Positions 48,413 to 59,345 of a DNA stretch of 64,000 bases are shown in pieces; the stretch's first letter is position 1; each line of letters opens with the position of its first letter. The DNA comes from Pseudomonas sp. Tri1 (lineage in GTDB: Bacteria > Pseudomonadota > Gammaproteobacteria > Pseudomonadales > Pseudomonadaceae): the NCBI RefSeq assembly GCF_017968885.1, contig NZ_CP072913.1:2154001-2218000 (forward strand), read 5' to 3'. The notes under the pieces are model-generated. The model worked only from the letters and a program-made list of their open reading frames with translations. It was not told where the DNA came from and made no database searches. Both the position numbers and the translations under genes were made by a program.

Positions 48413-49399
<987 letters not shown>

Positions 49400-49576: not shown

Positions 49577-49846
49577 ATGCAGATTACCTATGACCCAGCC
49601 AAAGACGCTCGCAACGTCGAAGAACGTGGACTTCCGTTTGCCCTCGTGCGGGACTTTGAATGGTCTACAGCATTGATCCTGGAAGATGATCGATTCGACT
49701 ACGGCGAGTGTCGTTATCGGGCGATGGGGTACATAGGGGATCGGCTGCATGTCGTAGTGTTTACCCCACGGGGTGACGCGGTCCACGTCATCAGCTTTCG
49801 TAAAGCCAACAAACGGGAGGTCAAAAATTATGACCAAGAAACCTAG
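49577..49846 (+). CDS. brnT: BrnT-family toxin
   Basis: BrnT is a small RelE-like ribonuclease that blocks translation. The 89-residue protein fits the family: YDPAKDARNVEERGLPF, then DFEWSTALILEDDR, GYIGDRLHVVVFTPRGD and the closing VISFRKANKREVKNY with its basic patch. It precedes and overlaps brnA by 17 bases, the usual toxin-first order. No ribosome site is visible before the ATG at 49577, which may make translation weak or leaderless. First gene inside the dusA island. Confidence 0.9.
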   Translation: MQITYDPAKDARNVEERGLPFALVRDFEWSTALILEDDRFDYGECRYRAMGYIGDRLHVVVFTPRGDAVHVISFRKANKREVKNYDQET

Positions 49847-50138
49847 TCCTGAGAGGGTCGATACGGCAAATCCCGAATGGTCGACCGAAGACTTTGCCAA
49901 GGCCAAACCAGCCAGCGAGGTGCTTGTTGGGTTGTTTGGCAAAGCTCAGGCAAAGGAAATGCTCAAGCCAAAGCGTGGTCGCCCCAAGTCGGTGGCCACT
50001 AAAGAGCACGTCAATGTTCGTTTCGATGCTGACGTGCTGGAGAGATTCAGAGCTTCTGGTCCGGGCTGGCAAACACGGATGAACGCCGCCTTGGCCGATT
50101 GGCTCAAGACGCATACACCAGAAGAACTGAAGGCTTAG
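49830..50138 (+). CDS. brnA: BrnA-family antitoxin
   Basis: A ribbon-helix-helix antitoxin of 102 residues that should bind BrnT and repress the operon. Its C-terminal half, KEHVNVRFDADVLERFRASG then GWQTRMNAALADWLKTH, is the DNA-binding RHH motif. The N-terminus (TANPEWSTEDFAKAKPA) is the toxin-binding arm. GGGAGG lies nine bases before the ATG at 49830, inside brnT, so the two are coupled. A terminator follows 27 bases after the stop. Confidence 0.92.
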   Translation: MTKKPSPERVDTANPEWSTEDFAKAKPASEVLVGLFGKAQAKEMLKPKRGRPKSVATKEHVNVRFDADVLERFRASGPGWQTRMNAALADWLKTHTPEELKA

Positions 50139-51195: not shown

Positions 51196-51507
51196 ATGAT
51201 TTTTCCAGATTCACGCATGTACCACACTACCGATGGGGTTGATCGTGAAAAGCTGAATCCCTGTCAGGTGGTGGTACGCGAGGAAGCAATGATCATCGAG
51301 TATGTCGACGAGTTTGGTAGCCGTGTGACCTATCAGGCTCGACAAATTGCTGAGGGGCAGTTCGAAATACGGCAAGAGATTGAGGAGGAGGACTATCTCT
51401 ATACCGCGACACTGCAGCAGGAAGGAAGTGGCTTCTACGATGGTAGGTGGTTCCAGCGCTACGGGCACCAGCAAAAGCGAGGCTCATGGTCTATTGAGCT
51501 GGCTTGA
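51196..51507 (+). CDS. Hypothetical protein, 103 residues
   Basis: A soluble acidic protein beginning MIFPDSRMYHTTDGVDREKL. It has alternating hydrophobic segments suggestive of a beta-rich domain (VTYQARQIAEGQFEIRQEIE, YTATLQQEGSGFYDGRWFQR). I do not recognise the family. GGAAT lies about eight bases before the ATG. It ends where the umuD remnant begins, so the original 5' part of umuD was probably replaced or deleted here. Confidence 0.5.
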   Translation: MIFPDSRMYHTTDGVDREKLNPCQVVVREEAMIIEYVDEFGSRVTYQARQIAEGQFEIRQEIEEEDYLYTATLQQEGSGFYDGRWFQRYGHQQKRGSWSIELA

Positions 51508-51539
51508 GCATGCAGCTGCTCTGCGGGGCAGGGCGAAGT

Positions 51540-51852
51540 GATGTAGATCTCGTACCAGTTTCCGTACGACATACACATATGTTGGTTCGAAAAAGGGGGA
51601 CTCTGCGTACAGAATTCGATTTTATCTTTGGAGGGGGCAGGACCATCGTAGATCGTACGATGGAACCTGCGGATGGTTACATCGTCGTCAGCGCTGCTGA
51701 ACAACGTACCCGTATGCAAGCGGCTTTGCATTCGCGGCAAGGAGGTGATTCTCCTGTCGGAGAACCCAAAGTATCCACCGAGGTACGTGCTTGAGGGCGA
51801 CGAGCTGGTGATCTGGGGCGTCATTACATGTAGTGTACGCAGCCATGTCTAA
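51540..51852 (+). pseudogene. umuD: Decayed umuD (DNA polymerase V subunit)
   Basis: Fragments of UmuD appear in different frames. The active-site motif KKGDS lies at about 51585. Then TIVDRTMEPADGYIVVSA in a second frame ends near 51701. After a one-base gain comes VCKRLCIRGKEVILLSENPK and YPPRYVLEGDELVIWGVI to the TAA at 51850-51852. The N-terminal cleavage region is absent. The rest is clearly UmuD, but at least two frameshifts make it non-functional, barring sequencing error. The stop overlaps the natural umuC ATG, the normal umuDC arrangement. Confidence 0.82.
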
Positions 51853-53124
51853 ACCCCTCCAGTTTTTGCCTTGATCGACTGCAACAGCTTCTATGCCAGT
51901 TGCGAGCGCGTGTTTCGACCCGACCTGGCCCGTGTGCCCATTGTGGTGGTGTTTAGCAACAATGACGGCTGCGTGATCGCCCGCAGCTACGACGCCAAGC
52001 CCTATGTGAAGATGGGCGAGCCGTATTTCCAGATCAAGCACAAGTTGCATAAGCACGGCATCGTCCCGTTCTCGTCGAACTATGCGCTCTACGGCGACAT
52101 GAGTGAGCGGGTCATGACACTCGTTGAATCAATGGTGCCCGCCGTCGAGGTCTACAGCATCGACGAAGCCTTTGCCGACATGACCGGCATTGATGGCCGG
52201 GATGCGCTTGGCAGGAAGATCCGCAGCCAGGTGCTTCGCTGCACAGGTATCCCGGTTGGGGTGGGGATCGCCCACACCAAAACCTTGGCAAAGCTGGCAA
52301 ATCACACCGCCAAACGGCTCCAGGTGGAGACCGGCGGTGTGGTCGATATCTGCGACCCGTTCAAGCGTGACTGGGTTCTGCGCAACACCGACGTGTCCGA
52401 GGTCTGGGGCGTCGGTCGCAAGATGAAACTTCACCTGGACGCCATGGGCATCAAGACTGCAATGGACCTGGCGAAGGCCGACCCGTGGACGCTACGCAAG
52501 AAGTTCAGCGTGGTGATCGAGAAGACTGCCCGGGAGCTGGCCGGCACGCCGTGCCTGGAATTGGATGAACCGGACCCGCCGAAGCAGGAGATCTGCTGTA
52601 GTCGGATGTTTGGTAAGCGACTCACGGAGCTAGCTCCGATCAAGGAGGCGGTGGCCACCTACATGATGCGAGCCTCGGAAAAGCTCAGAGCGCAAAAGTC
52701 GCTGTGCAAGAAGATCCGCGTCAGCATCCGCACCGGCATGTTCAACCCGGAGGAGGCGAAGTATGCCAATGGCGTGCTGATTGACATGCCGTATCCAACG
52801 GACGATGTACGGCTGCTGACCAAGACGGCCGTGGACGCGCTCGACCGAGTGTTCCGACCAGGCTTCAAGTACAGCAAGGCTGAGATGCTGTTGATGAACC
52901 TCTGTCAGCAGGGGGAGTACACCGACGACCTGTTTGCCACCTCCCAGCCTGCAGATGCCACGAGACTGATGGCGGTGTTGGGCGAGATCAATGGGCGTTG
53001 GGGCAGGGGGACGCTCCGATCAGCTAGCGTACCCGTCAACCCAAACTGGGGAATGCGTCGGGAAATGATGAGTCGGAGCTTTACAACTAAGCTAGACCAG
53101 TTATGGACGGTTCGATGTGATTAA
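51845..53124 (+). CDS. umuC: UmuC, catalytic subunit of DNA polymerase V, with 5' frameshift
   Basis: A Y-family polymerase for translesion synthesis. The body from 51871 keeps the catalytic DCNSFYASCERVF, the YSIDEAFADM acidic pair, the helix-hairpin-helix region, and the C-terminal little-finger domain (417 residues, near normal length). The natural ATG at 51845 overlaps the umuD stop. One A is missing in the run after codon 3, so that reading ends within ten codons. Translation would have to start at a TTG (51871) or not at all. Without UmuD' it would be poorly active. Confidence 0.8.
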
Positions 53125-53143: not shown

Positions 53144-54202
53144 TTACATTCTTAATACCAAACTTTTTACCCATGACATGCATGATTCGATAGCCCATGA
53201 TGTCTGTTGTGGTGTTAGTTCCGGCCGGTCTTTACTACCGGCCCCGTGGCTGAAGGGATTTCGTATCTCTGTAAAAAAAGACTTAAGTGCATCTCGCTCC
53301 CATGAAGTTATAAAGGCTCCATTTTTTTCGCTGCTTAAGTTGTCTATATAGTTGTGAGCGCCTCGTTCTTTTCCATGAGTCCAGCATTTATGGTCAGATA
53401 TGATTTTTATCGCGCTTTCTAATGCGCGAGCTGCGAAAAAGGCTGGGTCACGGCCATTGGCATCTCTTTGATCAAGTGCTTCTTTCATATCAGAGTCTAC
53501 ATTTTTCCAGATTGGTGCCGCCACTAAAGACCAAAATGCATTCTCAATATGTTGCTGGGTTAGCTCATCTGTTGAGGCTTGGATAAATCCATTATGATAG
53601 TTGAGTGGATAATTGGCTCTGAGGAAACGCTCGTTTAATTCATGTACAGCATCTTGAAAAGCTATATTTTCAGATCGGTTTATCGCTTTAAGTCCGTCTG
53701 ACCTTTTTCCAGGAATCACCATCCCAAGAACGGTGGAACGTTGTGATTGCTGACGCTCGGCAGTAGCAATATCTTCTTCCAAGCGTAAGTTCATCAAACG
53801 AATCTGTTCATCACGGTGGCGAAAGGCGAGTTCAATAAAGCTGAGCCGCTCCTTCATGAATCGATCGGGAGAAAAATCAGTTTGATAAGGCATGCAGATA
53901 AAATCTCTACAAATTTTATTAATTGTCCATGTGCCAGTTGTTGTGTGCGGCTGTCCAAGTTGCATTGTCTGGTAAGAGTAATATTTTTGCGCAAGATCCT
54001 CCTTGCCAAGCTCTCTGCATAAACGGTCATGTATCAACGTATAAGAAGCTTTAGCGATGGGGTTTTCTTGTCCTTGAGTCCAGTAGGGGAAAAGCTGTTC
54101 TATTAGCTGTATGCATTGATTCAAAACGCGACGTTCAGTTTCTGTGAACTCTTTCCAAAGCGGCAAATTGGTATATCGGTCAGCAAAAATATCAGTAAGC
54201 AT
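53144..54202 (-). CDS. AbiJ-like HEPN protein, predicted phage-defence RNase
   Basis: A 352-residue protein beginning MLTDIFADRYTNLPLWKEF, which recalls the AbiJ N-terminal domain 4 family. Its C-terminus carries EIRNPFSHG, an R-x4-H motif (Arg314, His319) that is the catalytic signature of HEPN ribonucleases. The base composition is visibly AT-rich against the chromosome. Third gene of a same-strand cluster, 117 bases after the AlbA_2 gene. Likely role: abortive infection by RNA cleavage; inferred from motif and context, not proven. The frame is open from 54259 but the ATG at 54202 matches the family. Confidence 0.7.
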   Translation of the reverse strand: MLTDIFADRYTNLPLWKEFTETERRVLNQCIQLIEQLFPYWTQGQENPIAKASYTLIHDRLCRELGKEDLAQKYYSYQTMQLGQPHTTTGTWTINKICRDFICMPYQTDFSPDRFMKERLSFIELAFRHRDEQIRLMNLRLEEDIATAERQQSQRSTVLGMVIPGKRSDGLKAINRSENIAFQDAVHELNERFLRANYPLNYHNGFIQASTDELTQQHIENAFWSLVAAPIWKNVDSDMKEALDQRDANGRDPAFFAARALESAIKIISDHKCWTHGKERGAHNYIDNLSSEKNGAFITSWERDALKSFFTEIRNPFSHGAGSKDRPELTPQQTSWAIESCMSWVKSLVLRM

Positions 54203-54319
54203 GGTGACACCAAGCTGAGAGGAAAAATTGAGCGTAGATCGTGCTAGGAGGTTATGCAAGCTGTAAATAGCTCGGGCTGATAAGGGGGCACCTAGATAAC
54301 GTTATGATATGGGAAGCGG

Positions 54320-55783
54320 TCATGTAGCCTGAGAGGACCGGCTGCAAGACGATACTGGTTCGTCTTGATCATCTCTGACGGCGTAGCCACACTCATATTG
54401 TAGGTATTCTCCATCGGCATCGTATTCCTTGCCGCCTATAGTCATGCTTTGAGTAAATGAAGTCCTTGTACTAAGTGGAGACTCGCAAATTGGGCAGAGG
54501 AGGTCTGTCTCTTTCAGTAGTTGTAATTGAGAAGAGATATTAGATCTCAGGTCTAACAGTTCCCTGGTTTTTGATGAAAGCTCCCCCTTGTATTTTTCTC
54601 CATCTTGTTGAAGTCTGCGGATCTCCTCTAAAGCTATATGTACTCGCTTGTTTAAAGCGGACAAAAGGTTGTCGGCAAAACAATAGCGATCACAGATATA
54701 TACAAAAAGTTTATGCCCCTCTAGGACGCATGTGGAAGTGCCATGCCGTACCCATGTTTCTCCGCTTGAGGAAAAGTACATTTCATTCGGCCTTCCTTTG
54801 GGTATAATAATCTCAACGACAAACTGGTCGGTTACCTCTGAGCCCGAACTTATTAATGGGTGGCTGACAATTTTAATTGAACTTTGCGGAAAGTTGGGGG
54901 AGATAGAGTGTATGGTGGCAGTTAATAGCCGCTGAAGTTCGTCTCTTTCGTCCCGATTTAGTTTTACGCCCTCGACAATTCCTTCGTCCGTTACTCCGAA
55001 TAGAATTCGTCCACCATCAGAGTTAAGAAAGCCTATTAGATATTTTTTTAACTGTTGAGCAATGGTCTTGGCAGAGTTTTTGGAGTTGACGGATTTGAAC
55101 TCCAATATTTCGGATTCCTCCTCCAAAAGCCTTTCTCGTAGTCTGAAGGCAAGTGGATTGAATCTTGAAAGAGTTTCGTCAAATTCATCTCCGATAGGGC
55201 AGTCATCGGGTTTATAATAGCCGGCCCGTATTAGTCTAGTAAAGTTCAACTCGAAAATTTCTTCGTTGTCATAAATTTCGCAAAGTAGGCGCTCGAAATG
55301 GAAGCCGTAAAGCCATATGTCTTCTGAAGGTAGTAGTAGTCCTGAGCTGGAGCCCTGTAAGAAATCTAAAAAATGAAGTTGGAAATTGTTTGTATTGAGG
55401 TGTTCCATGTAGTCATAAGAGTGGCTGTCTTGGGTTTTCCAGGCTTTAGCTAGATCTATGAGTTGTTCAAGAGAAAACGAGCAAGCATAGTCGAGAAATG
55501 GTTTGCACTGAGGTAAACAATGCTCGTCTAACTCAAGATATCCTTTTTTAAGGGTGGAGATTATGTCGTTATGCACTTGGTCTAGAGAGTATCCAAGCGC
55601 CTCTAATCTACGGCGTAATTCTCGGACGGAGATTTCGTAAGCTCGAAAGAATGAATTATCCGATAGGTCGCCAATAGCAACAAGATCAGCAGTATTGAAA
55701 AGGCTAGCATATTTGTCGTCTACGCGCTTGGCTGTACCACCCAGGTACGTTCCACCAATGCTTACTTCGCTCTCGGTTGCCAT
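54320..55783 (-). CDS. AlbA_2/Schlafen-like protein with zinc ribbon
   Basis: A 487-residue protein. Residues 1-220 are helical and not recognised. At 222-352 an AlbA_2 domain is seen: ESEILEFKSVNSKN, FLNSDGGRILFGVTDEG, and ETWVRHGTST at its end. A coiled coil follows (about 372-428), then a C-terminal zinc ribbon (C430, C433, C465). AlbA_2 domains bind nucleic acid and occur in prokaryotic Schlafen-like and other defence proteins. GGGGAG precedes the ATG. It is the middle gene of the AT-rich cluster, starting 38 bases after the YaaC-like stop. Confidence 0.72.
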   Translation of the reverse strand: MATESEVSIGGTYLGGTAKRVDDKYASLFNTADLVAIGDLSDNSFFRAYEISVRELRRRLEALGYSLDQVHNDIISTLKKGYLELDEHCLPQCKPFLDYACSFSLEQLIDLAKAWKTQDSHSYDYMEHLNTNNFQLHFLDFLQGSSSGLLLPSEDIWLYGFHFERLLCEIYDNEEIFELNFTRLIRAGYYKPDDCPIGDEFDETLSRFNPLAFRLRERLLEEESEILEFKSVNSKNSAKTIAQQLKKYLIGFLNSDGGRILFGVTDEGIVEGVKLNRDERDELQRLLTATIHSISPNFPQSSIKIVSHPLISSGSEVTDQFVVEIIIPKGRPNEMYFSSSGETWVRHGTSTCVLEGHKLFVYICDRYCFADNLLSALNKRVHIALEEIRRLQQDGEKYKGELSSKTRELLDLRSNISSQLQLLKETDLLCPICESPLSTRTSFTQSMTIGGKEYDADGEYLQYECGYAVRDDQDEPVSSCSRSSQAT

Positions 55784-55821
55784 TCAGCTCCCCTGCTATA
55801 TCTAAGGTAAGTGTAAGTAGT

Positions 55822-56847
55822 CTAGTTTCTCCCAGGAAGTATAAACTCATGCCCTGTGAGCTCAGACGAAATTTCATCTACGAATTGAGCGGATGCCGAA
55901 GAAATGAACTCCGAAAGGAGCCAGTTATGCTGGCAATCGAAGTGTCTCGAAAGTTTGTCGGGCTCATACCTGGCCATCTCGGATAATTTATGCATAGCAG
56001 CAAATGCAATAGTCATAGAACTTCTTTGAATAAGTCCGGAAATATTTCCCCCTCGTTTGAGGTACCAAAAACTTTGAGCTCCGTTTATATAGTAGATTTT
56101 TTTTCTAAGTTTAGTATGGTATGTTTTATACCTCGCTAGGTTTTGGGGTACCTGTTTTGCTTTCCATTTGAATCTGTCGGTTGAGCGGATTGTGAATGAG
56201 TCTTCTATGCTTATATCTCTTTCAAATTTTATGGGTAGCTTGTTTGTTGTGTGGTTCGTTGCATATTGATCTGTGATTCTAGCACTAAACCATGCTTCAT
56301 CAGTTTTTGCTGATTTAACGATTTTTGGTTCTTTTAAGGGTATGAATAGTTCTGTGTCAGAACTAAAAGTCAAGGTGAATGCTCGGTGGATCCCAGGAAG
56401 GTTATAAAGCAGATCTTTCAATGTGTAGGTGTCTTGGACTGCCGGCTCGCCTAAATGTCGGCATAGTGCGGGGAGAATTCCAGAAGTTTTGAACTTCACC
56501 TGTTCGTTACTCAGTGACGTGTGTCCTTTTTTTGTATAGCCGGATACGCCGTGTTCATCACTGAATTGGACTCCTTTTGCGAGTAGTAGAGTTTTTGTTG
56601 CGTTCAGGAAGCAATAGTAAGCAGTAAGAGGAGCTGATGTTTTAGGAAGCATTTTTGTAGCGTCGTAGAAGCTTCTTGCTTGGCTCCAGAAAAAACGAGC
56701 ATCTTTTTTTCCGGCTCGTTTTAGCCAAAGATCCACATAATCCCAGGTACTTGTGACAAGCACGGTTTTTTCATTGAAGTGGGGGGTTGTTACTGATTTG
56801 TGAATAGTCAGATTCTTGTTTTTATATTTTATATCTCGATGTGTCAT
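55822..56847 (-). CDS. YaaC-like protein
   Basis: A 341-residue soluble protein with the block FFWSQARSFYDATKMLPKTS then APLTAYYCFLNATKTLLLA. I recognise this as the core of the YaaC family, known in Bacillus and in defence islands but of unknown biochemical role. It may be HEPN-related. AAGGGAC lies eight bases before the ATG. It is the first gene of the three-gene AT-rich cluster and so probably sets its promoter in the 56848-57000 gap. Codon use is rich in A/T third positions, unlike the flanking genes. Confidence 0.68.
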   Translation of the reverse strand: MTHRDIKYKNKNLTIHKSVTTPHFNEKTVLVTSTWDYVDLWLKRAGKKDARFFWSQARSFYDATKMLPKTSAPLTAYYCFLNATKTLLLAKGVQFSDEHGVSGYTKKGHTSLSNEQVKFKTSGILPALCRHLGEPAVQDTYTLKDLLYNLPGIHRAFTLTFSSDTELFIPLKEPKIVKSAKTDEAWFSARITDQYATNHTTNKLPIKFERDISIEDSFTIRSTDRFKWKAKQVPQNLARYKTYHTKLRKKIYYINGAQSFWYLKRGGNISGLIQRSSMTIAFAAMHKLSEMARYEPDKLSRHFDCQHNWLLSEFISSASAQFVDEISSELTGHEFILPGRN

Positions 56848-57253: not shown

Positions 57254-57333
57254 TTAATCCGTCCAATCCATCATCGGGGCAACGGAGAAGCGTCGAGAGA
57301 TGGGCTGAGGTGGAATTTTTTGTAGAGGCATGG
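57254..57333 (-). pseudogene. dusA: Displaced 5' end of dusA
   Basis: Read on the minus strand from 57333 it gives MPLQKIPPQPISRR, FSVAPMMDWTD and then a stop, the start of DusA followed by foreign sequence. Upstream it still shares CAGTTTATCAG with the sequence before the intact dusA. It is the original gene start left behind by the insertion. Confidence 0.8.
57261..57286. other. Right attachment-type direct repeat (dusA core copy)
   Basis: 26 bases identical to 49338-49363. The stretch 56848-57260 before it holds no gene I can name; a 90-residue open frame there runs across the repeat and is not convincing. Confidence 0.82.
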
Positions 57334-57440: not shown

Positions 57441-58163
57441 TCACTGGCTCATGCTTAAGCTAATAATGGTTTCGGTTTGAATTTCTACCAGGCTTAACGC
57501 ACCATCAGAAAATGAGCAGCCGGTGTCGATATAGACAACATTGCCCAAGTGTATAACACCGGGTACTGAAGAGTGCCCTACATAGAGCCGGTCTATTCCT
57601 TTAATGGAAGTGTGATCTTGTTGCTCGATCTTCTCTCTTGCATACAGCGCAGTTTTCAAGGCTTGCCGCTGATGTTGCTCTCCAAAACTTCCAGTGATAG
57701 CGTCCTTGGCTTCCTGCCATCCATCGTTACTCCTGATGACAGGGGCTTCGGCATGGACTATTCCGATTGTTTGATCGCTTGATAAATTGATTTCAATGAT
57801 CAGTGGGAGTGCTTGCAAGGCTTTCAAGAGTTCATGTTGGACGGGGGGTTGTAGCTCGTAGAGCCAAGCGCCACCGTTTCGGATATGTCGGGGTATGTCC
57901 CCATGGCCGGAGATACAGTCAATAAGCATCTGCTCATGATTGCCACGCACGGCATGGAACCACGGCTTCTCGAGCCAGTTCAATACATCTATGGAGTCGG
58001 GGCCGCGGTCGATGAGGTCTCCCACGGAAAAAATACGATCCAGCTCAGTGTCGAAGTCTAGTTTGTCTAAGGCCGTTGTTAGAAGTTTGAAATGTCCATG
58101 AATGTCGCCCACTACAAAGTCGCGACCTTTTTTGTTGGGTGGGAAAGATCTCGTCCTGTACAT
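57441..58163 (-). CDS. PrpA-type Ser/Thr (PP2B-like) metallophosphatase
   Basis: A 240-residue calcineurin-like phosphatase with all metal motifs: GDIHGHFKLL, SVGDLIDRGPDSI, RGNHEQM, and His residues in YVGHSSVPG. It resembles phage lambda protein phosphatase and E. coli PrpA/PrpB. Targets unknown. It lies just outside the right repeat of the dusA island, convergent with nothing on that side, so it belongs to the old host flank or to an earlier insertion. No strong ribosome site precedes the ATG. Confidence 0.9.
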   Translation of the reverse strand: MYRTRSFPPNKKGRDFVVGDIHGHFKLLTTALDKLDFDTELDRIFSVGDLIDRGPDSIDVLNWLEKPWFHAVRGNHEQMLIDCISGHGDIPRHIRNGGAWLYELQPPVQHELLKALQALPLIIEINLSSDQTIGIVHAEAPVIRSNDGWQEAKDAITGSFGEQHQRQALKTALYAREKIEQQDHTSIKGIDRLYVGHSSVPGVIHLGNVVYIDTGCSFSDGALSLVEIQTETIISLSMSQ

Positions 58164-58256
58164 TTTCAGTGCTTCAGCAGATGTTGATTGGCGGTGACTG
58201 TATCACTTGGCGAAATAAACAGTAAGCCGCTGAGCGGGGGGAATAACGTCGTACGG

Positions 58257-58856
58257 TCAAGCTTGAATCGCCTGCCCAATACACTTCTCAAAAACCTGCT
58301 CCATAGGCTCCATGACGCCGTTATAAGCCGCGATATTGGCGTAGATCCACTCGTCCTTCTCAATCCCCCACCAACTGATTTCAAACCCGGCATTCATGAT
58401 GAGGTGTTCAAACAGGATGCGTTGCGCACGGCCATTGCCTTCGCGGAAGGGGTGTACGACGTTGATGTCGGAATAGGCCTCTGCCACAGCAGCTATCAGC
58501 TCAGCTCGCTCCATGCCCTCGAACCAGTTTGCCGCGGCCATGGCCATGAAGATCTTGCTGGCTTCTTTCTCCATGTACTCGGGTTGGCAGAAGCGGGTGG
58601 CTTGTTTGGACATGCCAACGGTGCGCAGCTCCCCGGCCCACTCGAACAGGTCCGAAAAGAGAATTCGATGAATGTGCTGCAGGTCAGCCAGGCTGTAGGG
58701 AGGAGGGCTGAATTCGACGTTGTCCGCTGCGATGGCCGAGAGTTGTTGTTCGGCTTCGCTTAGGGTCAGTTCGTCACGGATATCGAGTTTGTTGCGAAGG
58801 ACCGTGGAGCCGGGATAGCAATAAGCGTCCTCGCCGACTCCATATTTGTCAGGCAT
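58257..58856 (-). CDS. fic: Fic-domain toxin (AMP transferase)
   Basis: Fic enzymes attach AMP to target proteins. The 199-residue protein has the full catalytic motif HPFREGNGRAQR at 135-146, with the His and both Arg intact. No inhibitory helix is seen in it. That role falls to the gene just upstream, making this a class I pair like VbhT/VbhA. The FIC flap region LRTVGMSKQATRFCQPE is visible. Its ATG overlaps the antitoxin stop. Targets in such toxins include DNA gyrase and Topo IV; none is proven here. Confidence 0.93.
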   Translation of the reverse strand: MPDKYGVGEDAYCYPGSTVLRNKLDIRDELTLSEAEQQLSAIAADNVEFSPPPYSLADLQHIHRILFSDLFEWAGELRTVGMSKQATRFCQPEYMEKEASKIFMAMAAANWFEGMERAELIAAVAEAYSDINVVHPFREGNGRAQRILFEHLIMNAGFEISWWGIEKDEWIYANIAAYNGVMEPMEQVFEKCIGQAIQA

Positions 58857-59025
58857 TAGTTCTGGTCTGGGTGAAGGCCTTCAAGACCTCTTCACGCGTT
58901 GGCATTTTGCGTTCGCCGTCCGCGAAGGTCACTTTGAAGCCTTCCAGACGGAGGCTGGCCGCGTAGTTGGATCTACGCGTCCTGGCGGCATAGGCTTTTT
59001 TGGTTTCAAGGCTGATATTGCCCAT
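58849..59025 (-). CDS. Fic antitoxin, VbhA-like
   Basis: A 58-residue protein with the class I inhibitory motif S/T-x3-E-G/N at Ser24 to Gly29 (SLRLEG), whose Glu28 should block ATP positioning in the partner Fic site. It starts MGNISLETKKAYAARTRR, with GAGGTC upstream of the ATG at 59025. It precedes fic and overlaps its start by eight bases, so the two are coupled. Confidence 0.88.
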   Translation of the reverse strand: MGNISLETKKAYAARTRRSNYAASLRLEGFKVTFADGERKMPTREEVLKAFTQTRTNA

Positions 59026-59138
59026 GGGGCTGGACCTCAAATCGCGCTGGTGGGCGGATTATAGCCGATCCTGTTGGCATGGCCTACGTCGCGCCTGGAC
59101 GAATCAAGTTTGACTGTGCGGGGCTGCTTTCGGGCTGA

Positions 59139-59345
59139 CTATTCCAGATTGTGAGCAGTCTTTGATAGTAGGCCTTGGCGCAGTAGATGGTTGATGACGG
59201 TTTGATATCCAGTGCCGGCACTTTCGGCGTACTCGCAAGCGGCCTTGATCACTTCATCATCAAGCATGATGGTTATGCGGGTTTTTCCTTCGCTGCTCGT
59301 AACGGGACCCCGCTTGGCCGTGCTGAAGTCGTATTCTTCTCTCAT
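59139..59345 (-). CDS. Orphan BrnA-like ribbon-helix-helix protein
   Basis: A 68-residue protein, MREEYDFSTAKRGPVTSSEG, with KTRITIMLDDEVIKAACEYA, which matches the N-terminal arm and RHH motif of BrnA antitoxins. No brnT is found beside it, unlike the pair at 49577. AGGGA precedes the ATG. It may be a repressor left after loss of a toxin. Confidence 0.78.
   Translation of the reverse strand: MREEYDFSTAKRGPVTSSEGKTRITIMLDDEVIKAACEYAESAGTGYQTVINHLLRQGLLSKTAHNLE

Follow-up and report, generated by a model that had tools for sequence, protein, structure and literature searches.

Introduction

The AlbA_2/SLFN fold is found in the Schlafen ribonucleases (RNases) SLFN13 and SLFN14, in the SAMD9/SAMD9L tRNase-SA, and in bacterial defense Schlafens, and catalytic roles have been assigned to E205, E210, and D248 of rSLFN13 in the passages of PMC5862951 concerned with this site. 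AbiJ-NTD4 has been described as a domain that occurs in fusion with AbiJ-type HEPN, and phage interaction and RNA degradation have been proposed for such proteins (Anantharaman et al. 2013, PMC3710099, in the sections on these families); the same source attributes an alternative active site to AF0298. The att architecture of dusA-specific genomic islands is set out in part of PMC4482086. Here, we examine three adjacent genes that combine relatives of these proteins within a 64,000-nucleotide stretch of the Pseudomonas sp. Tri1 genome (NZ_CP072913.1, positions 2,154,001 to 2,218,000), hereafter the window. The trio encodes a YaaC-family protein, a Schlafen-type protein, and a protein carrying AbiJ_NTD4 and a HEPN motif. 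With about even confidence, we read it as a stack of RNA-cleaving, abortive-infection-type modules in a remnant element at dusA and not as one obligate three-part machine.

Gene Organization and Composition

The trio consists of three intact open reading frames (ORFs) on the minus strand, transcribed in the order YaaC, middle (Schlafen-type), and HEPN. The YaaC-family gene (55822..56847) encodes 341 amino acids from an ATG start with AAGGGA upstream. It is followed after 38 bp by the middle gene (54320..55783, 487 amino acids), which was characterized by Pfam, a PDB sequence search, and a structure model with fold searches, and after a further 117 bp by the AbiJ_NTD4 and HEPN gene (53144..54202, 352 amino acids), which was assigned by its PF18863 match, an alignment, and 1439 homologues. 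The start of this last gene was set at the ATG at 54202 because homologues begin MLTDIF. A first-pass annotation of the window had described three same-strand genes with these gaps and had named YaaC, AlbA_2, and AbiJ domains; the ORFs are as it placed them, and the Pfam matches for all three domains exceed their cut-offs.

The GC content of the three genes is 0.408, 0.434, and 0.424, compared with 0.604 for positions 1-48000 of the window, in agreement with an earlier remark that the trio is AT-rich against its host. At third codon positions (GC3), the trio genes have values of 0.37-0.42 and seven other measured genes (umuC, BrnT, BrnA, phosphoesterase, Fic, dusA, and transaldolase) have values of 0.52-0.77. 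The trio therefore forms a single block in composition and stands apart even from the other genes of the island.

The Middle Gene Encodes a Predicted Schlafen-Type RNase

Judged by its sequence and structure model, the middle protein is most likely a bacterial Schlafen/SAMD9-like metal-dependent RNase, and its target is probably tRNA. Its SLFN_AlbA_2 domain (PF04326, 62.7 bits, cut-off 25.3; residues 223-351, 54731..55117) is also recovered by the PDB sequence search, and the structure model and fold searches place the protein in the SLFN-like fold that it would share with the Schlafen RNases, SAMD9/SAMD9L tRNase-SA, and bacterial defense Schlafens. The E-x4-E...D triad of Schlafen RNases and SAMD9/SAMD9L is present as E223, E228, and D266 in 26/26 alignment rows, and these residues correspond to rSLFN13 E205, E210, and D248 in the PDB-search alignment, with the chain offset counted by us. 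The first-pass annotation had cast this protein as a sensor licensing the HEPN RNase. That view does not hold up well against intact Schlafen RNase catalytic residues, and we reject a role as mere sensor because the acidic triad is kept.

Vertebrate SLFN N-domains form a two-lobed pseudo-dimer, whereas Pfam finds one AlbA_2 stretch in the middle protein, which we therefore do not class as a vertebrate-type SLFN. It further differs from the Schlafen RNases in that AlbA_2 is fused to a HEPN/Toprim N-terminal domain 1 (residues 1-80, 55544..55783; PF18871, 27.2 bits, cut-off 25, profile positions 1-87 of 223), which was absent from the earlier list of domains, and to a coiled coil (residues 356-425) with a zinc ribbon (C430, C433, C465, and C480), both within 54344..54718. 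The combination of AlbA_2, coiled coil, and C-terminal zinc ribbon had been recognized at the outset, and Pfam, secondary structure, and conservation corroborate it: C430, C433, and C465 are kept in 20/20 full-length alignment rows (the window included) and C480 in 18/20. Other genomes of this family encode the tail of the protein (residues ~370-482) separately, in small proteins. Those encoded at L002, L003, L004, and L090-L093 pair a coiled coil with the zinc ribbon seen in the tail; several have an N-terminal hydrophobic stretch, and the one at L093 adjoins a PIN-domain gene.

The Last Gene Encodes an AbiJ_NTD4/HEPN Protein

The last gene has the features of an AbiJ-type HEPN protein, an AbiJ N-terminal domain and an Rx4-6H motif. 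AbiJ_NTD4 (PF18863, 65 bits, cut-off 34) spans residues 23-244 of a longer, TTG-start reading of the protein. The motif RNPFSH (R314-x4-H319, 53246..53263), singled out as a HEPN catalytic motif in the first-pass annotation, is conserved at R and H in 121/121 aligned rows. These are the window protein, the database entry for that same protein (P0026), and 119 further homologues, the listing giving 120 of 1439. No C-terminal Abi_C/HEPN profile matches the window protein at E <= 1; PF14355, which we take to be Abi_C, is annotated for some of the listed homologues. AbiJ_NTD4 followed by a C-terminal R-x4-H is what the protein has in common with the AbiJ/AbiJ_NTD4-HEPN group, as portrayed in the corresponding sections of PMC3710099. 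It differs from that group in lying outside the STM4504/CBY_0614 family (NF046078, 38 bits, far below the cut-off of 150) and in having no PADLOC match at E <= 1.

YaaC Is Predicted To Adopt a HEPN Fold

The first protein belongs to the YaaC family (PF14175, 178.3 bits, cut-off 27), which we met in Bacteroidota, Bacillota, Pseudomonadota, and cyanobacteria among genome contigs, as well as on E. coli plasmids, and for which no role was found in the literature searched. Its predicted model contains a HEPN helical-bundle core with a large alpha/beta insert, and YaaC itself is probably HEPN-fold. The predicted fold matches AF0298 (2hsb, HEPN-T type) over 119/126 residues. The two proteins share the helix-2 sequence AYYxxxxAxKA, and YaaC has an invariant His (H99) after helix 2, as in the alternative active site of AF0298 (PMC3710099, in the passage on that protein). 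Unlike AF0298, YaaC has the long alpha/beta insert; there is no significant sequence match between them, and the canonical Rx4-6H is not placed. In the PDB, 2hsb was the sole sequence match up to E 10, and no HEPN family matches YaaC in Pfam at E <= 1. Across 38 aligned rows, H99 and R155 are conserved in 38/38, and in R239-x4-H244 the R is present in 33/38 and the H in 38/38.

The Trio Lies in a dusA-Site Element

The dusA gene (48413-49399, minus strand; DusA NF008774, 522 bits, cut-off 269) contains in its 5' end one copy of an att-like direct repeat (49335..49377) revealed by a repeat search. The second copy (57258..57300; 43 bp, 91% identical) lies 7.9 kb away and forms the outer end of the element. 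Insertion in the dusA 5' end and imperfect direct repeats are shared with the dusA-specific islands, as far as these are described in the part of PMC4482086 cited above. In contrast to those islands, no tyrosine integrase was found adjoining dusA: neither the element nor the window contains a PF00589 integrase, the genome's three PF00589 loci being elsewhere, and serine integrases were not searched for. We call the element a remnant because the window lacks a PF00589 integrase. Given the repeat architecture without a PF00589 integrase, the trio is cargo that shares a 7.9 kb remnant with BrnT/BrnA and umuC, and the earlier suggestion of foreign island cargo is supported.

A phage counterpart of the repeat is present in Pseudomonas phage Haddon, in which 43 bp of the window (49336-49378, a one-base shift) are matched at 90.7% (E 9e-6), 158 bp from an ORF for a PF00589 integrase; an annotated excisionase comes next. 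In 5/38 relatives (G302, G307, G311, G313, and G315), the contig that holds dusA carries a second dusA 5' fragment at a distance of ~35-46 kb. This spacing in the five genus genomes is a prophage-like distance, compared with 7.9 kb for the window element.

The Trio Does Not Recur in YaaC and HEPN Neighborhoods

We surveyed 79 YaaC loci from genome contigs with flanks of up to 10 kb (41/79 at least 20 kb, 14/79 below 8 kb), calling genes by longest-ORF heuristics and counting relatives of the middle and HEPN proteins at E <= 1e-3. None of these loci carries such a relative. The other two subfamilies are likewise absent from 12 viral and 2 plasmid YaaC loci, and YaaC and Schlafen relatives are absent within the fetched flanks of 11 viral and 1 plasmid HEPN loci. 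At one of the viral HEPN loci (L125), the gene directly follows that for the terminase large subunit. The recurrent co-occurrence in independent genomes expected of a three-gene system is thus not seen for YaaC and HEPN loci. The first-pass annotation had proposed one such system, with a genome-neighborhood search as its check and genes carried singly elsewhere as the sign against it; the search returned no second trio, and YaaC and HEPN genes do occur singly. Because their relatives are found alone, the trio is probably a stack of defenses and not one machine.

The HEPN protein was matched in 1/50 YaaC-bearing genomes searched (50 of the 79), by a weak match confined to profile positions 183-344 (E 1.7e-7), and among 369 class genomes in its own genome only; YaaC was matched among 298 genus genomes in its own genome and by one weak match. 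By tblastn, YaaC matches occur in 88 plasmid records (71 from E. coli; 4/88 examined), and HEPN matches in 7, of which 2 were examined. In three overlapping draws, of 298 family, 398 genus, and 398 family genomes, a full-length middle gene was matched only in its own genome, and partial matches occurred in 9, 12, and 5 other genomes, respectively. Of 25 relatives of the middle protein, none was placed on a contig. Among 45 genomes from the genus to which Rhodanobacter sp. L36 belongs, two partial matches to the middle protein were obtained, both in the AlbA_2 region. Profile scans of genome contigs and viral contigs found no other full-length middle gene, and single-protein viral scans with its relatives P0004 and P0012 found none. 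No match to the three proteins was obtained by tblastn against a phage collection, nor to the trio in E. coli genomes at the DNA level. The longest contigs of middle-protein cluster P0007 and YaaC cluster P0264 are both 3499 bp, against a chance expectation of ~0.06-0.07, which may hint at a second linkage of YaaC with a Schlafen gene. An equal contig size of 3703 for YaaC and HEPN clusters is within chance (~0.8 expected), and one of 1426 leaves no room for both genes.

The first-pass annotation matched these genes to no described system, and PADLOC agrees for YaaC and HEPN, neither of which has a match at E <= 1. That the trio is already named in PADLOC was rejected, the only matches being those of the middle protein to LmuB (E 0.00037, through the AlbA_2/coiled-coil region) and LeoC (E 0.037).

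Near YaaC, we collected 86 same-strand genes of at least 110 amino acids within 400 bp, in 65/79 loci. Among the top 25 of 63 Pfam families, these include Mrr_cat (4), Methylase_S (3), N6_Mtase (2), and Eco57I (2), and once each HamA, GmrSD_N, TIR_2, AbiJ_NTD3, AbiJ_NTD4, and reverse transcriptase; ordinary genes, such as those for transporters and a TonB receptor, are also present. A control drawn from the far ends of 39 of these loci (69 genes) gave matches to 92 PADLOC families, compared with 452 from the 86 near genes. The control was mostly housekeeping, with a few defense families: the top 25 of 73 Pfam rows include N6_N4_Mtase (2), ThsA_Macro (1), and HipA_C (1). The comparison is qualitative because family counts are non-independent, only the top 25 rows are considered, and far ends may lie inside islands.

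By clustering, 5/79 YaaC loci (L061, L079, L082, L084, and L086) share one downstream gene family, which overlaps YaaC in four and lies 8 bp away in one; its Nuc_deoxyrib_tr match is above the Pfam cut-off in one, below it in three, and missing in one. The same two-gene unit occurs on an E. coli IncY plasmid (L103:5998-7547), near phage C1 repressor and Ref, and on a Bradyrhizobium plasmid (L165:2225-3786), both matches being below cut-off. The partner, of ~170-180 amino acids, is weakly nucleoside deoxyribosyltransferase-like, with 1/7 above cut-off. This unit could be a defense pair.

Interpretation of the Trio

The reading of the trio as stacked modules draws on observed gene anatomy, domain families, conserved catalytic residues, model fold matches, island borders, and solo relatives; from these, we infer RNase activity, tRNA as a target, activation, and an antiphage role. 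Each product would act on RNA. The middle RNase would be kept inactive by three of its parts, the HEPN/Toprim-NTD1, the coiled coil, and the zinc ribbon, and would act once an infection signal permits, perhaps through multimerization. The last protein would be a HEPN RNase of the AbiJ type that senses through AbiJ_NTD4, and HEPN-fold YaaC may be an RNase as well or the partner of the adjacent Schlafen protein. Translation shutdown and abortive infection would follow. The modules would move separately, HEPN by itself and YaaC either by itself or accompanied by the Schlafen gene. Of the roles assigned in the first pass, the defense-type domains stand, while the division of labor is replaced by two probable RNases and a HEPN-fold YaaC, as predicted from sequence and models. 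Several points weigh against this reading. At L085 (Paenibacillus daejeonensis), an AbiJ_NTD4 gene, albeit of a distant subfamily (E 0.00033 to the window HEPN profile), lies 171 bp downstream of YaaC. The neighborhoods surveyed are those of YaaC and HEPN genes, and the equally low GC3 and co-orientation of the trio also fit a single operon that moved as one. Furthermore, the vertebrate SLFN nuclease domain is two-lobed whereas the middle protein is not, and YaaC has a weak sequence link to HEPN (E 0.68) and no significant Foldseek match to it (E 0.83).

The best alternative to the stack, though an unlikely one, is a two-gene system of YaaC and Schlafen in which YaaC is partner, antitoxin, or co-effector and HEPN an independent neighbor. 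The 38 bp gap and the ribosome-binding-like sequences before both genes (judged by eye) fit this arrangement, and the tight pairing of YaaC with a Nuc_deoxyrib_tr-like gene elsewhere indicates that YaaC can go with a downstream partner; nevertheless, no genomic YaaC locus of the 79 has a Schlafen gene of the middle-protein family, and the 3499-bp coincidence, in which YaaC is 56% identical, is only a hint. We are rather more doubtful of one three-component system, in which the Schlafen protein senses infection and licenses both HEPN-fold YaaC and the AbiJ-HEPN protein. Shared strand, close spacing, homogeneous GC3 unlike that of the fellow cargo, and the one independent adjacency of YaaC and AbiJ_NTD4 (L085) speak for it, but the survey found no other trio, the 117-bp gap before HEPN has no clear ribosome-binding site (by eye), and 11 viral contigs carry HEPN but neither of its two companions, in one case directly after the terminase gene. 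Least probable of all, decaying passenger genes without present function might have been kept by chance in an immobile remnant. The missing PF00589 integrase, the neighboring umuC without a clear start, and promoter-like matches that do not exceed the shuffled level (5 found, mean 8.0 in shuffles) are in keeping with decay, yet all three ORFs are intact with their catalytic residues, and a 93% identical middle protein is present in Pseudomonas sp. SWRI179.

Beyond the stacked modules, it is conceivable, if improbable, that YaaC represents a large unrecognized HEPN defense family and serves here as a dedicated regulator or as co-effector of a single-lobe SAMD9/Schlafen tRNase, with the second HEPN RNase as backup. 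If so, the trio would be a layered all-RNase abortive-infection cassette mirroring mammalian SAMD9/SLFN antiviral immunity. The YaaC family gains a testable fold (predicted HEPN), candidate residues (H99, R155, and H244), and a defense-type setting. The locus also adds a bacterial single-lobe Schlafen of unusual architecture adjoining a HEPN gene and a putative HEPN-fold gene, and offers a way to explore the relation of mammalian SLFN/SAMD9 tRNases to phage defense.

Neighboring Genes

Fellow cargo of the element includes a BrnT/BrnA toxin-antitoxin pair (49577..50138, plus strand; PF04365 and PF14384) and a umuC-like gene with no evident ATG/GTG start (51871..53124, plus strand; NF002955, 473 bits, cut-off 431), which is convergent with the HEPN gene with 19 bp between stops. 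The first-pass annotation placed the trio beside BrnT/BrnA; the pair is present, but "beside" is loose because 3 kb and the umuC-like gene intervene. A plasmid umuDC match (H29) extends upstream of umuC (region 51504-53124), and a umuD remnant is therefore likely there. Beyond the element, positions 57441-59345 form an AT-richer stretch that holds a phosphoesterase gene, Fic accompanied by a YhfG gene, and a gene for a BrnA-like antitoxin, next to which no BrnT was seen. On an Acinetobacter nosocomialis plasmid (L164:3966-6041), YaaC adjoins BrnT/BrnA, as it does loosely in the window.

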